Shown piece by piece: positions 10,579 to 16,295 of a stretch of DNA of 16,295 nt; position 1 is the first letter of the stretch; the number at the start of each line of letters is the position of its first letter. The notes below the pieces were generated by a model that did no database searches, was not told where the DNA came from, and saw nothing but the letters and a program-made list of their open reading frames with translations. A program made the translations under genes and the position numbers. The stretch comes from Rhodospirillaceae bacterium (GTDB lineage: Bacteria; Pseudomonadota; Alphaproteobacteria; Thalassobaculales; Thalassobaculaceae): NCBI GenBank assembly GCA_002730675.1, contig PCAV01000077.1, positions 3,747-20,041 of the forward strand. Direction: 5' to 3'.

Positions 10579-10653
10579 GCTGCCGTAGCTCAGGGGTAGA
10601 GCACTCCATTGGTAATGGCGAGGTCGACAGTTCAAATCTGTCCGGCAGCACCA
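10579..10653 (+). tRNA. tRNA-Thr (anticodon GGT)
   Basis: A complete 75-base cloverleaf with encoded CCA. The acceptor arms GCTGCCG and CGGCAGC pair fully, with A as discriminator. The D stem is GCTC/GAGC with a short AGGGGTA loop, the anticodon loop is TTGGTAA (anticodon GGT, reading ACC and ACT), and the T arm is GACAG-TTCAAAT-CTGTC. The anticodon stem CTCCA/TGGCG has one U-C mismatch at pair 28-42, which is unusual but need not abolish function. It stands alone between the small basic ORF and the amidohydrolase gene, on the opposite strand to both. Confidence 0.95.
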
Positions 10654-11689: not shown

Positions 11690-13465
11690 TTATTCTGGAT
11701 CAGTAAAAGATTCTTCAAAAGCTTTCATGATTGGATAAGTGAAGTATGTAATCAATGTTCGTTTACCTACTTTTATATCTGCAGATGCTAGCATGCCTTG
11801 AGAGAGGTCAAAATCTTGTGGCATTTTTGAGTCTTTTACGCTCTGGGTTTTAACCCTTCCCCGATAAAAAACACCTTTATCCCCAGCTAGGGATTCATTA
11901 AATGTATCTTTTGAGATAAATACTAACTCTCCGTCCAATCCACCAAATTCTTGGAATGGCATTGCATCCAACTTCACAGATACCGGCATTCCAACCTTTA
12001 TGTCGCTAATTTCTTTCGAGTCAATATCAACCTCCAAAAACAGTGGTTGATTTGTTTGAACCAGCGTAATTATTGGGTCACCTTCACGGATGTTTCCTCC
12101 GCTAGCCACAGACGGTATATCAAGCACAACACCGTCACCCGGCGATCTAACAACGACATTGTCAACTAACCTCTGCAATTTAATCTTTTCCTGCTCAAGT
12201 TGCATTAGTTCTTCGTTTTTTCCAGTAATTTCAGCTGTTAGATTAGATGCCCATTGAGCAATGAAGGCCTGCTTGTCTGCATTCAATGTAGTGATTTCAG
12301 ATTTCAGCTTTGTGATTGCACTCTGAGCATTAAACTGAGCTTTTTCCGCATTTAATAACTGGTCTTTTGCTTGCAAGTACTTCAGCAGAGAACCAATTTT
12401 ACGGTCATAGAGATCTTTTTGAACCTTTGTTAATTTTCGTTTAATTTCGGACTGCTTCTCAGAGATTTTGAATAGTTCCCTGGATGCTTCATATTCATTT
12501 TGGAGTTTAGTTAACTTGGAATTAAAGGAATTATTTTTTTCTTTGTATTCTGTAACTTTTTTAACCAAGGTGTTTCGATAAAGCTCACTTAATGAATTGT
12601 TATTATTTTTTAATCCCAACCTTTTAACAGTGTTATAGTAGAGATTATCCAGAGCGGCGGTTGGCTTCAACTCATTGGGCCTGTCCACGAGTGACTGTTC
12701 CATATTTAACCGGATCAATGACTGATAAATATTATCTATCTTTTCCTGATTTTGTTTTAAGTTCACCTTTACAACGGTGTCATCCAAATACGCAACTATC
12801 TGGCCCTTGGAAACAGCGTCACCTCGCTCAACCTCAACACTTTTGACGACAGAGCTCGCACTCGCTTCTACAATCAGGTTTGGAGTAGCTGTCATAAACT
12901 CGCCTCTGGCTGAAATTGTTGTATCAACTTCGTTAAGGGCCGCAAATACTACTCCCAAGATAAAGAATGCTAATAAGCTAATTGTAGATATTAGCAGCGG
13001 TTTTGACGGTCCCTGTTTGTAAATTGCGTCAGTGTCATTTATTTCATGATCATGGCTCGCGTCAGCTTCATTCATGTTGACCTCCACCATCTGTGAAGCG
13101 TCTCGACTCAAGCTTTCATATCTTGCTACAAGCTGGTTCGCCGTCCTTAAGTTTTCTGATATTGTCTTCATAATCCGAATGGCGGCTTCCGGATTTTGTC
13201 TTAGATAGTTTACAAAACTTTCTGCCGTGACCTCTGTTACTACTGCATCGCCCTTCGCCCGAGCGCCTGCACTTCGCGGATTACCGTCTATTAACGCCAT
13301 CTCACCAAAAATAGTGGGCGGCTCTAATTCTGCGAGTACTTGGTCCCCGCCAGACCCATGTTTCACGATTTCAACTACACCGGACTTGACGATATATCCA
13401 TATACCGCGCTTTCACCTTCGCGAAATATATATTCCCCACCAGAAAAAGTTTGATCACCCGCCAT
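11690..13465 (-). CDS. HlyD-type membrane fusion protein with N-terminal cyclic-nucleotide-binding domain
   Basis: This is the periplasmic adaptor of a type I secretion system, with an added cytosolic sensor domain. Residues about 5-115 form a CRP/PKA-type cyclic-nucleotide-binding domain. Its phosphate-binding cassette FGEMALIDGNPRSAGARA (53-70) has the ribose-contacting E55 and phosphate-contacting R64, so it looks able to bind ligand. A single membrane segment lies at about 156-177, then a lipoyl half-motif (about 195-230), a long coiled-coil hairpin (about 232-435), the second lipoyl half with VVVRSPGDGVVLDI at 437-450, and a beta-barrel region (about 475-565). HlyD proteins usually start with a short cytosolic tail, so the roughly 150-residue N-terminal region is the oddity. 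The start ATG 13465 has AAGAGAG upstream, 36 bases after the ABC gene. Ligand control of export is inferred. Confidence 0.9.
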   Translation of the reverse strand: MAGDQTFSGGEYIFREGESAVYGYIVKSGVVEIVKHGSGGDQVLAELEPPTIFGEMALIDGNPRSAGARAKGDAVVTEVTAESFVNYLRQNPEAAIRIMKTISENLRTANQLVARYESLSRDASQMVEVNMNEADASHDHEINDTDAIYKQGPSKPLLISTISLLAFFILGVVFAALNEVDTTISARGEFMTATPNLIVEASASSVVKSVEVERGDAVSKGQIVAYLDDTVVKVNLKQNQEKIDNIYQSLIRLNMEQSLVDRPNELKPTAALDNLYYNTVKRLGLKNNNNSLSELYRNTLVKKVTEYKEKNNSFNSKLTKLQNEYEASRELFKISEKQSEIKRKLTKVQKDLYDRKIGSLLKYLQAKDQLLNAEKAQFNAQSAITKLKSEITTLNADKQAFIAQWASNLTAEITGKNEELMQLEQEKIKLQRLVDNVVVRSPGDGVVLDIPSVASGGNIREGDPIITLVQTNQPLFLEVDIDSKEISDIKVGMPVSVKLDAMPFQEFGGLDGELVFISKDTFNESLAGDKGVFYRGRVKTQSVKDSKMPQDFDLSQGMLASADIKVGKRTLITYFTYPIMKAFEESFTDPE

Positions 13466-13501
13466 TGTTTCTCTCTTCGTCGCTTTACGGGACAGATTTT
13501 T

Positions 13502-15640
13502 TTAGGCCCCTGATAGTTTCTGATCCATTGTCCATAACTCTTTGTACAATGGACATGTTTTAAGAAGATCTTCGTGCTTCCCTTGACCAACAACTATACC
13601 CTTTTCAAGCACAACTATTTGCTCAAATTCAGCAGTTAGTCGCATATCATGAGTTGCCATCATCACCGTTTTATGCTCGGCAATCTTCGGAAAGTTTTCA
13701 AAAAAGCCAATCTGTGTAGACTTATCAAAATTAACCAACGCCTCATCTAATAACAATATTTTTGGCTTTGCCATCAAACCCCTCGCCAGCGCAACGGTAA
13801 CCCGATTTCCTTGTGACAAGGGTAGTCCAAACTGATTTATTTCAGTAGAAATACCGTCTGGTAATTCCTCCAAAACCCGCGATAATCCGGATATATCAAG
13901 AATTTCCTGAAACTCTCTCTCGCTTATATTTGGTTGCACCTTTCTCAAATTTTCTTCGATCGTTGCTCCAAAAAAGACCGGCTTTGCATCGATCAATGTC
14001 GTCTGACTTCGGTAATTATCCAAGCTGAGATACCTAATATTTTGTCCATCAATTTCCATCGCACCCATATTAGGCCTCAAAAAACCTTGGCAAAGTCTTA
14101 GAAAAGTTGTTTTTCCAGATCCAGATGGCCCTACTACCGCTACTTTAGTTCGAGGTGCAATATCGAGATTGAGACCATTTAGTGCTGCCGTATCATCAAA
14201 TTTGACTATTACGTCGCGGCAAACTACCCCGCCCTTGACTACATGTTGATTACCTGCCCCTAAACGTTCAGTAGGCCCATTCCAAGTGGTCCCCACTGTG
14301 TCAATTGTATTTTTGAAATTTGTTAGGTCTGCGAAAAATGTAAAAATGGCCGTAACTGGGGCAACTAATTTACCTGCCAGCATGTTACATGAAATGATAG
14401 CTCCAGCTGAAAGTGATCCCGCCAAGACCAGGAGAACTCCAGTGAATACCAACACCACTGTCATAATTTGCGTGAGAGTAGAATTAATATTTGTAACTGC
14501 GAGGTTTGCTATTTGACCTGCAACAGACCTTCTAATACTGCTCGACGATATTTGTCGCCATTCCTTGCGTTGAGTGGGCTCCAGAGAAAATGCCTTTATC
14601 GTTTCGATACCGGCAACGCTAGCTTGAACTGTTCTTCTTTTTGAGGCTTCTATCGGTCCCGTAATCTTACTCTCTTCCTTTTGCCGCCAGCGACTAAATA
14701 ATGTTATTGCGCCAATCAAAATCGTGAAACACGCAACGATCAAGGCAAGCGCGGGACTATAGCCAAATAGGACCGGCATAAATACTAGTAATCCTGTAGC
14801 ATCAAAGATGGTCGTAAGAACTTGGCGTGATATAAAATTTTTGATCGTTAGAGGCGATTGCAAAATCCCCTCGAACTCCGCCGGCGATCCCGTCTGAAAT
14901 GTAGATGCTGGTAACGACATAACTTTATCAAATACATCACCCGCAAGCCTAGCTTCTATCGAGGTAGATACAAAGTTTATAACATAATCACGGACGAAAC
15001 CGAGAATGCCGTTGAAAATTAAGGCACCAACCACTCCAGCGGCTAAAATGTATAAAGTTCCAACTGCTCCATAATTTAGAACCTTATCAAGTGATATCTG
15101 TATAAATACAATAGGGGCAAGACCCAAAAGATGCGTTATAATCGAAACAATAAATGTGACCCCAAGTAAACTTTTAAATCTGTAAATTTCAGGAATAAAC
15201 CACCTCCAGTCGAAAAGGCGATCCTGAGAATCGACACCAGTTTCACGGCTTACGAGAAAAACTGCCCCATTCCAACTGCTTTTAAACTCAGTTTCGTTTT
15301 CGACCACAACCTTATTCGTTGGATCCAACGGGTCTATCGTCTGGAATTCTGCTATATTTTGTTCATTGACCTTGCAACTTATCAAGATCCTGGAAGTTCC
15401 ATCCTTCAGGGTTGCAACACAAGGAAAATAATACGATCTCTCGATAAGCGTGCGTAGCGCGGGTTTTAGATATTGTAATTTTATTCCCTGCTCTTTAAAC
15501 GTCTGTTCAAGATCATTTTGTGACGAGATATGTCCTCGCGAAATTTTCTCTTCGACTTGCTCTGCTGTAACTCTAATTCCAAACTGTCTTGCCAAGGCAA
15601 TCGTGCTTAGGGACAGGGATCTAATAGATCGTTCATTCAT
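13502..15640 (-). CDS. HlyB-like type I secretion ABC exporter with inactive C39-like domain and atypical ATPase motifs
   Basis: A 712-residue inner-membrane ABC exporter expected to pair with the HlyD-like protein encoded next. Residues 1-130 form a C39-peptidase-like domain with neither catalytic Cys nor His in place, as in HlyB, so it would bind a substrate but not cut a leader. The membrane domain has about six segments between 158 and 440. The nucleotide-binding domain has Walker A GPSGSGKT (504-511), Walker B ILLLDEA (628-634, with E633) and H-loop H664. However, the signature is LSQGN (608-612) instead of LSGGQ, the Q-loop position is A552 in LIDAKPVFF, and the D-loop is VNFD. ATG 15640 has AAGG nine bases upstream. 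It is first in a two-gene operon. Either it pairs with another ABC subunit or it is a divergent homodimer. Confidence 0.9.
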   Translation of the reverse strand: MNERSIRSLSLSTIALARQFGIRVTAEQVEEKISRGHISSQNDLEQTFKEQGIKLQYLKPALRTLIERSYYFPCVATLKDGTSRILISCKVNEQNIAEFQTIDPLDPTNKVVVENETEFKSSWNGAVFLVSRETGVDSQDRLFDWRWFIPEIYRFKSLLGVTFIVSIITHLLGLAPIVFIQISLDKVLNYGAVGTLYILAAGVVGALIFNGILGFVRDYVINFVSTSIEARLAGDVFDKVMSLPASTFQTGSPAEFEGILQSPLTIKNFISRQVLTTIFDATGLLVFMPVLFGYSPALALIVACFTILIGAITLFSRWRQKEESKITGPIEASKRRTVQASVAGIETIKAFSLEPTQRKEWRQISSSSIRRSVAGQIANLAVTNINSTLTQIMTVVLVFTGVLLVLAGSLSAGAIISCNMLAGKLVAPVTAIFTFFADLTNFKNTIDTVGTTWNGPTERLGAGNQHVVKGGVVCRDVIVKFDDTAALNGLNLDIAPRTKVAVVGPSGSGKTTFLRLCQGFLRPNMGAMEIDGQNIRYLSLDNYRSQTTLIDAKPVFFGATIEENLRKVQPNISEREFQEILDISGLSRVLEELPDGISTEINQFGLPLSQGNRVTVALARGLMAKPKILLLDEALVNFDKSTQIGFFENFPKIAEHKTVMMATHDMRLTAEFEQIVVLEKGIVVGQGKHEDLLKTCPLYKELWTMDQKLSGA

Positions 15641-15673
15641 AGGGAATACCTTATCGATAAACGTGCGCTTGCC

Positions 15674-15679
15674 ATTATA
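15674..15679 (-). promoter_or_regulatory. Consensus -10 box of the secretion operon
   Basis: On the minus strand this reads TATAAT, a perfect -10 hexamer, 34 bases before the ABC exporter start. At 17-base spacing the -35 position reads TCCTGT, which is poor. A promoter with a strong -10 and weak -35 often depends on an activator, and a palindrome lies directly upstream. Confidence 0.55.
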
Positions 15680-15704
15680 TCTTTAAAGTGATTCAAACAG
15701 GAAG

Positions 15705-15719
15705 TCTACAGACTGTAGA
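15705..15719. promoter_or_regulatory. Palindrome TCTACAG-A-CTGTAGA, candidate operator
   Basis: A perfect 7-base inverted repeat around a central A, immediately upstream of the -35 position of the secretion operon promoter. A further CTACAG half-site lies at 15722-15727, followed by AGTAG. The centre is about 45 bases upstream of the predicted transcription start, a typical place for an activator. The regulator is unknown; the pattern does not match the CRP/FNR consensus TGTGA or TTGAT. Confidence 0.45.
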
Positions 15720-15763
15720 AACTACAGCAGTAGTACTATTGAATTCTAGCAGTATAAATAAAA

Positions 15764-15789
15764 AGAGCCGGAGCATTTGCTCCGGCTCT
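15764..15789 (-). terminator. Strong intrinsic terminator of the repetitive-protein gene
   Basis: AGAGCCGGAGC (15764-15774) and GCTCCGGCTCT (15779-15789) form a perfect GC-rich 11-base stem with a 4-base loop. On the minus strand a TTTTATTT tract follows. It lies 20 bases after the stop of the repetitive ORF and upstream of the secretion operon promoter, so it separates the two transcripts. It is the clearest terminator in the window. Confidence 0.92.
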
Positions 15790-15808
15790 CTATGAACTTT
15801 AGTAGTTT

Positions 15809-16295
15809 TTAACCAACTATCGGCTCGTCCGGTCCTGCCGCAGGCTCTGGCGCAGTATCTGGAGCATCTACTGGAGCTTCTGCGCCCGCGTCTGGTGGCG
15901 CTCCTGTATCGGGGGCACCCCCACCAGCGCCTTGGTCCATAGCTTGATCCATAGCTCCTCCAAGGGCCGCATCAAGACCGGCCATTGGATCCCCTTCAGG
16001 TCCAGGGGGTGGATTAGTTCCCATTGGATCGGGAGGTGCCATATTAGCCATTGGATCCCCTTCGGGTCCAGGAGGTGGATTAATTCCCATTGGATCAGGG
16101 CCAGCCATTGGCTCAACACCTTGCGCGCCAAAAGCTGCACCTAGAGCGTCCATATCACCCATCCCGCCAGCGTCTGCCGGTGGTGCCATACCTTCTGGTC
16201 CTGGAGGTGGTGCTACCCCTGGAGGCATAGCTGACATCATGTCCGCATCCATACCCTGCATTGCTTCCGGTGGCATTGCCGCCATCATGTCCGCA
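15809..16295 (-). CDS. Repetitive Met/Pro/Gly/Ala/Asp-rich acidic protein, 3' part (runs off right edge)
   Basis: The reading frame is open to the window edge. The residues encoded before the first visible Met (A-D) fit the same repeat pattern (ADMM-x-AMPP), so the true start is probably beyond base 16295. At least 161 residues are visible. They contain no Lys, Arg, His, Cys, Trp or Tyr, about 12% Met, and many Pro, Gly, Ala and Asp, so the chain is very acidic and probably disordered. Repeats include AMPP-x2-x(n)-DADMM blocks at the start, and PPPGPEG three times (residues 27-33, 71-77 and 93-99 from the first visible Met). It ends DEPIVG and a strong terminator follows. No family is recognised. 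Its place beside a type I secretion operon, lack of Cys and acidity would fit an exported substrate, but no RTX nonapeptides are visible. Confidence 0.7.
   Translation of the reverse strand, partial: ADMMAAMPPEAMQGMDADMMSAMPPGVAPPPGPEGMAPPADAGGMGDMDALGAAFGAQGVEPMAGPDPMGINPPPGPEGDPMANMAPPDPMGTNPPPGPEGDPMAGLDAALGGAMDQAMDQGAGGGAPDTGAPPDAGAEAPVDAPDTAPEPAAGPDEPIVG
15981..16099 (-). repeat. In-frame tandem repeat, two 53-base copies at 66-base period
   Basis: Bases 15981-16033 and 16047-16099 are the same sequence with four substitutions. They encode DPMG-T/I-NPPPGPEGDPMA. Three of the four differences fall at third codon positions and are silent; the fourth changes Ile to Thr. The 66-base period equals 22 codons, so copy number can change without breaking the frame. 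Confidence 0.85.

Follow-up and report, generated by a model that had tools for sequence, protein, structure and literature searches.

Organization of the locus

The window, the whole stretch of 16,295 nucleotides analyzed, belongs to an incomplete genome (G000, 68% complete), and its end is the exact end of contig C77 (20,041 bases). The following features were assigned, all on the minus strand:

11690..13465 (-): HlyD-type adaptor with an N-terminal cNMP-binding domain, 591 aa (Pfam, NCBIfam, PDB sequence match)
13193..13450 (-): cNMP-binding domain, adaptor residues 6-91, with phosphate-binding cassette FGEMALIDGNPRSA (Pfam, motif alignment)
13502..15640 (-): HlyB-like ABC exporter, 712 aa (Pfam, NCBIfam, PDB sequence match, motif readout)
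15762..15791 (-): terminator-like hairpin between the cargo gene and the ABC gene (hairpin scan)
15809..16294 (-): K/R-free Met/Pro/Ala/Gly/Asp repeat protein, C-terminal part, ending DEPIVG, probable exported cargo (ORF composition)

Transcription runs from the repeat ORF through the hairpin to the ABC gene and, 36 bases further on, to the adaptor gene. The coordinates originally predicted for the adaptor and ABC genes are right. The prediction had also placed a cation-free repetitive ORF immediately upstream; this holds as to composition, the ORF featuring no K/R and 26 D/E in its 161 visible residues, but only the C-terminal part is present, because the window ends at the end of contig C77, and the hairpin separates it from the ABC gene. 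A tRNA-Thr gene (ggt) resides beside the module, at 10579-10653 on the plus strand.

At the start of another contig of this genome, C4, a repeat ORF of the same Met/Pro type is represented by its N-terminal 154 residues and is preceded by a complete acidic ORF of 525 aa ending DVPPPPDDPVVG. In the relative G003, a single contig carries in a row the 525-aa ORF, a repeat ORF of 318 aa ending DEPIVG, the ABC gene and the adaptor gene. Contigs end inside the repeats in G001, G002, G011 and G020, and inside the ABC gene in G004 and G030.

The ABC protein carries PF00664 and PF00005, and HlyB is its top sequence match in the PDB (4e-77), which places it among the HlyB/PrtD-type exporters of type I secretion systems (T1SS); the top NCBIfam hits are under their cut-offs (TIGR03375, 374 vs. 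693 bits; TIGR01846, 356 vs. 726 bits). Its N-terminal domain is C39-like. The PF03412 match is under cut-off and begins at profile position 21, and no Cys was found in the N-terminal stretch shown, which includes what we take to be the position of the catalytic residue; the catalytic C39 Cys of peptidase-containing exporters of the HetC type is thus missing.

The cNMP-binding domain of the adaptor

The fusion of a cNMP-binding domain to an HlyD adaptor, proposed from the letters alone, is borne out by profile searches. Adaptor residues 6-91 match PF00027 (cNMP_binding, E 1.2e-20), and residues 158-587 match TIGR01843 (type_I_hlyD) with 236.8 bits, over the cut-off of 208.65. In the PDB, the adaptor finds its best sequence match in its counterpart within the HlyB/HlyD complex (8dck_C); the matches over its first 115 residues are cNMP domains from kinases and from regulators of the CRP type. 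TIGR03896 (cyc_nuc_ocin), a bacteriocin-type transport-associated protein with a stretch like a cNMP domain, was matched by residues 6-107 with 22.6 bits only, far below its cut-off of 161.05.

The phosphate-binding cassette features the Glu and Arg typical of cNMP-binding domain proteins, which we take to be the telling residues of the pocket. The motif FGEMA[LI]I[DE]...RSA is kept in all 48 fused adaptors aligned (45 without repeated loci), and a slightly looser pattern in 240/240 homologues listed, these being the best 120 of 639 and the best 120 of 601 found by word searches over the first 500 residues. A chance or misannotated fusion is ruled out by the presence of the motif in all 240. 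FGE and RSA are kept in seven of the eight loci L163-L170, the motif differing at one or two other places in three of the seven; L169 is cut there. For L045-L082, pocket conservation is in part a product of ascertainment, because the two peptide patterns used to seed the scan of species genomes lie within the cNMP domain. The fusion recurs in relatives, in the species-genome scan and in the class survey. Among plasmid records, 69/72,556 match the adaptor at 1e-30; the five listed match the HlyD part only, and two cover at least 80%.

The domain might serve as a structural or oligomerisation module exerting no ligand control, export being constitutive. PF00027 folds occur also in proteins binding no cyclic nucleotide, which fits this reading. 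It is improbable, however, given that the pocket is near-invariant although adaptors at the far end are only about 26-32% identical overall, and that cyclase genes are linked to the operon (see below).

Conservation of the gene neighbourhood

Conservation was monitored in 52 loci, many of them close kin (the window, L034-L042, L048-L082 and L164-L170), drawn from relatives, from a species-genome scan (best 80 kept of at least 500 relatives) and from a class survey; L045-L047 and L163 were dropped as repeats of other loci. Record titles name Rhodospirillaceae, SAR116, OM182, other Gammaproteobacteria, a beta proteobacterium and Magnetococcales, the carriers being mostly uncultured, apparently marine bacteria. 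The class survey gave matches at E 1e-50 in 23 of 385 genomes; judged by the matched range, 10 carry the fusion, G320 and G354 are cut, and the others match the HlyD part.

The three-gene neighbourhood, whose absence in relatives had been set in advance as grounds for giving up the prediction, is conserved and is found again in distant Proteobacteria. The ABC gene adjoins the adaptor gene in 51/52 loci, the exception being L169, which is cut by a contig end and has the adaptor visible only from about residue 90 (the adaptor of L082 lacks its end). Acidic ORFs poor in K/R (K+R at most 1%, D+E at least 8%) are found at the operon in 33/52 loci. In another 11 loci the contig ends within the ABC gene or shortly before it (L038, L040, L051, L054, L056, L057, L059, L063, L069, L072, L169), and no acidic ORF was detected by this threshold in 8 loci with visible flank (L052, L055, L058, L062, L068, L071, L167, L168). 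In L052 a short Met-repeat ORF is found at the other edge, and the acidic ORF of L067 lies past the adaptor gene.

Acidic ORFs as candidate cargo

The loci examined contain 957 ORFs with a length of 130 aa or more. Of these, 36 are acidic and K/R-poor as defined above, 34 of them belonging to operons; L071 and L072 account for the other two, with a repeat ORF and an RTX-like ORF, respectively. The L071 ORF (13384-14112), K/R-free, rich in GPNVTCGEG and located some 1.7 kb past the adaptor, is unlike the usual cargo. Among the 34 operon ORFs, K/R are entirely lacking in 24 and number one or two in the other 10; Trp residues are few or missing, and D+E exceed K+R by 23 to 109.

C-terminal regions were analyzed in 35 ORFs, the 34 of the operons plus that of L049 (1.6% K+R), leaving aside those of L071 and L072. 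A tail made up by two terminal hydrophobic or Gly residues, with an acidic residue within the preceding five, is found in 34/35, as against 54/891 of the remaining ORFs having a stop and 18% of composition shuffles. A short stretch ending QG occurs in 19/35 C-terminal regions vs. 1.3% of shuffles. Both patterns were written after the sequences had been seen. AprA and like proteases end with Asp and three hydrophobic residues, and the lipase TliA with EGVLIS, a terminal motif of this kind being dispensable in one study (PMC2642768).

The proteins have been annotated only as 'hypothetical protein', and the candidate cargo family is here given a definition. RTX families of Pfam, and with them the nonapeptide repeats of RTX cargo, were not detected in the four cargo ORFs scanned (that of the window, that of L042, and both of L034). 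Database homologues of the 525-aa protein number 13 at E 1e-5, and no Pfam domain was found in any of them. A search for further cargo by PPPDDP-type motifs gave 7 hits in 5 of 10 genomes, and the two examined (C4 of G000, C12 of G020) are second acidic ORFs of the 525-aa kind.

The acidic proteins could be disordered proteins staying in the cytosol, with the exporter serving some other cargo. They belong to no known family, and their export is read from sequence features, which leaves room for this explanation; it is nevertheless very improbable, since acidic ORFs hold the same operon position across widely separated clades and their tails resemble known T1SS tails (PMC2642768).

The hairpin of the window (15791-15762) has 13 pairs, 8 of them GC, and is followed by a T-rich stretch. 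A loose scan of the window gave 5 terminator-like sites vs. 4.7 expected by chance, this hairpin being far stronger than the other four (13 vs. 5-6 pairs). Among 30 loci tested out of the 33 with an acidic ORF, a hairpin with a T-run, taken as the best site of a scan with no shuffle control, was found in the first 130 bases past the acidic ORF in 29; the next gene is a cyclase instead of the ABC gene in 2 of the 30. The position of the hairpin after the cargo gene suggests the making of much cargo and few exporters, a pattern presumably like that of hlyA vs. hlyBD. No paper on a terminator within the hly operon was found in a literature search.

Two further observations concern the repeat genes and their surroundings. 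In some clades (L077, 1-660; L053, 200-862; L081, 3-1199) the cargo repeats are crowded with Met, His and Cys residues, in MHHMPHDCM-like stretches, a composition suggestive of copper binding. An ORF looking like a trypsin-like protease lies upstream of ORFs of the 525-aa type in C4 of G000 (L171, 2440-3321, minus strand), in L034 (2106-2987) and in L172 (3114-3980); a K/R-free protein would resist trypsin-type cleavage.

Cyclases, TolC and the nature of the ligand

Class III cyclase genes reside near the operon in 17/52 loci, within the flanks fetched. In the G043 clade (8 loci) a gene encoding a CHASE2 and class III cyclase protein starts a few bases past the adaptor stop and is followed by one or two small cNMP proteins; in L042 (12978-15074) the cyclase is followed by two such small cNMP-binding proteins, both stand-alone, and by a DUF1538 protein. 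In the L048 clade (UBA4588, 5 loci) a cyclase of 295 aa precedes the ABC gene, and in two SAR116 loci a 295-aa cyclase, 70-71% identical to the former, lies 4.8 kb beyond the adaptor. This cyclase is thus found within about 5 kb of the operon in 7 loci from two separate adaptor clades; it is single-copy in 10/10 genomes of these two clades and operon-linked in 7. In the genomes of the SAR116 loci L080 and L081, a 295-aa cyclase (48% identical) resides elsewhere. L066 has a TPR-cyclase 1.5 kb on, and L051 another cyclase on the opposite strand. In a tree built from 51 adaptors, those accompanied by the CHASE2 cyclase form one clade, and the 295-aa cyclase group needs two changes.

The Asp pair and the Asn/Arg motif, which we take to be catalytic in class III cyclases, are preserved in the complete cyclases of L042, L053 and L066. 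When PF00211 matches were counted in 18 genomes, possibly incomplete, the operon cyclase was the only one found in those of L072, L075 and L078, and both cyclases of those of L048, L076 and L077 lie within about 10 kb of the adaptor.

The link with a second messenger, as originally predicted, holds in part: cyclase genes lie at the operon in distant clades, but none (0/9 loci) in the clade of the window itself. Three class III cyclases are present in G000 away from the operon, two of them listed on C134 and C139, and the 295-aa cyclase has no match in this genome at 1e-20. A dedicated 295-aa cyclase accompanying the system everywhere is ruled out, none being found in 385 class genomes at E 1e-60, a sample holding no positive control.

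The suggestion that TolC might be encoded elsewhere proved sound, as one TolC-family ORF (PF02321) was found in G000, on contig C130, beside another HlyD gene. Because it sits by another T1SS, its pairing with the window system is only inferred. TolC-family genes adjoin the operon in several other clades. An HlyD-type adaptor and a TolC-family partner, two components of type I secretion, are both represented.

The PF00027 domain of HetC, another exporter, bound ppGpp (Kd about 59 uM) and not cAMP (PMC10986499), so that the class of the domain leaves room for more than one ligand. The adaptor may likewise serve the same export system while binding a non-cyclic ligand (ppGpp or GTP), in which case export would follow starvation, not a cyclase. 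The operon of the window, devoid of a cyclase, fits this alternative; the pocket Glu and Arg-Ser-Ala, kept throughout, and the cyclases found at the operon in several clades, with the residues kept in L042, L053 and L066, do not, and we consider it unlikely, if with a modest chance of being correct.

A proposed type I secretion system with a nucleotide sensor on the adaptor

The T1SS with a cNMP-binding adaptor is a real, conserved variant, undescribed as far as searched: no paper on the cNMP-HlyD fusion was found by title or abstract start in the open-licence literature. As judged from sequence, it is likely, with considerable room for doubt, that the system is dedicated to the secretion of very acidic, K/R-free, probably disordered proteins, and that its activity is subject to post-synthetic control through the adaptor, exerted by a second messenger of nucleotide type, most probably a cyclic mononucleotide. 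This proposal builds on the domain fusion, the conservation of genes and pocket, the linkage of cyclases in several clades, the tail pattern and the hairpin, from which we infer export, the identity of the ligand and the step gated. Counting against it are the lack of a linked cyclase in the clade of the window, the 8 loci with visible flank in which no acidic ORF passed the threshold, the partial ascertainment of pocket conservation, the binding of ppGpp by the HetC domain, the absence of the Q-loop Gln in the ABC protein of the operon and the association of the only TolC found in G000 with another T1SS.

The cargo gene would be strongly transcribed, most transcripts ending at the hairpin, to yield abundant cargo and few exporters. 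By analogy, the cargo would be recognised via its C-terminal tail and the C39-like domain of the exporter. Binding of the ligand to the CRP-like domain, on the cytosolic N-terminus of the adaptor, would then allow productive engagement of cargo and TolC; cAMP or cGMP may open or assemble the channel, as originally predicted. The cytoplasmic domains of adaptors in ABC exporters and T1SS are sizable and, though little known, essential for substrate recognition and complex assembly (PMC8277102), and a nucleotide sensor located there suggests control of cargo engagement or of TolC recruitment.

The system shares with HlyA-HlyB-HlyD-TolC the HlyB-like ABC protein with a C39-like domain, the type I HlyD adaptor, the cargo gene upstream, a TolC-family gene by the operon in several clades, and a tail, acidic and then hydrophobic, as in some T1SS cargoes. 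It differs in the cNMP-binding domain of the adaptor, in a cargo nearly K/R-free with no Pfam RTX match and, each in some clades, in the linked cyclases and the degenerate ATPase motifs of the ABC protein. LapBCE/LapA likewise combines a type I secreted protein with a second messenger; there, however, the messenger is c-di-GMP, and LapD/LapG act on the surface retention of the adhesin and not through a domain of the adaptor. HetC of Nostoc is an exporter with a PF00027 domain required for its function in vivo (PMC10986499), but in HetC the domain is on the ABC subunit, which has an active cysteine peptidase, no adaptor gene is nearby, and the domain bound ppGpp. If the proposal is correct, a second messenger would act directly on the adaptor of a secretion machine, the operons of some clades including cyclases of their own, and secretion may be switched directly by a signal.

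Erosion of ATPase motifs in the exporter

The ABC protein of the window features the Walker A Lys, the catalytic Glu and the H-loop His, has Ala in place of the Q-loop Gln, and LSQGN as signature. Of the four motif residues scored in 49 operon ABC proteins, the Walker A Lys is the most often kept (45), followed by the catalytic Glu (33), the H-loop His (28) and the Q-loop Gln (8). In SAR116, Walker A, signature, Glu and His are all lost in 4/4, PF00005 being still recognised in the one scanned (L081). ATPase motifs are thus eroded in some clades, while the nucleotide pocket of the adaptor is kept. Loss of ATPase motifs is not a hallmark unique to the cNMP-adaptor system, since the catalytic Glu is replaced by Asp and the H-loop His is absent in 7 of 8 control ABC proteins, these seven coming from a second T1SS next to the operon in the G043 clade; the eighth control, from G000, is canonical. 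The loss of Walker A in all four SAR116 proteins stands apart from these controls.

The HlyB mutant H662A binds ATP with no hydrolysis and gives no cargo at the cell surface; whether ATP drives type I transport stepwise or acts only as a gate is left open in the same source, in which proton motive force or an electrostatic gradient are named as alternatives (PMC5018854). It is conceivable, if improbable, that in part of the family, most clearly in SAR116, the exporter has turned into a conduit gated by the second messenger and no longer powered by ATP, through which the membrane potential (inside negative) would pull the polyanionic chain out, the missing positive charge of the cargo serving as an electrophoretic mark. 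Eroding ATPase motifs combined with a kept nucleotide pocket provide a natural experiment on the role of ATP, and could make the question testable.

The second, shorter ABC proteins of the T1SS neighbouring the operon in the G043 clade are encoded in L073 (18688-20277, minus strand), L079 (18663-20264, minus strand) and L170 (307-1902, plus strand), with four similar ones. A different layout was observed in seven loci (L083-L087, L090 and L102, e.g. from Terasakiella and Methylocystaceae), made up by two ABC genes, an HlyD gene and a separate small cNMP-binding protein; the 13 ABC proteins scored in these loci keep the Q-loop Gln and the catalytic Glu.
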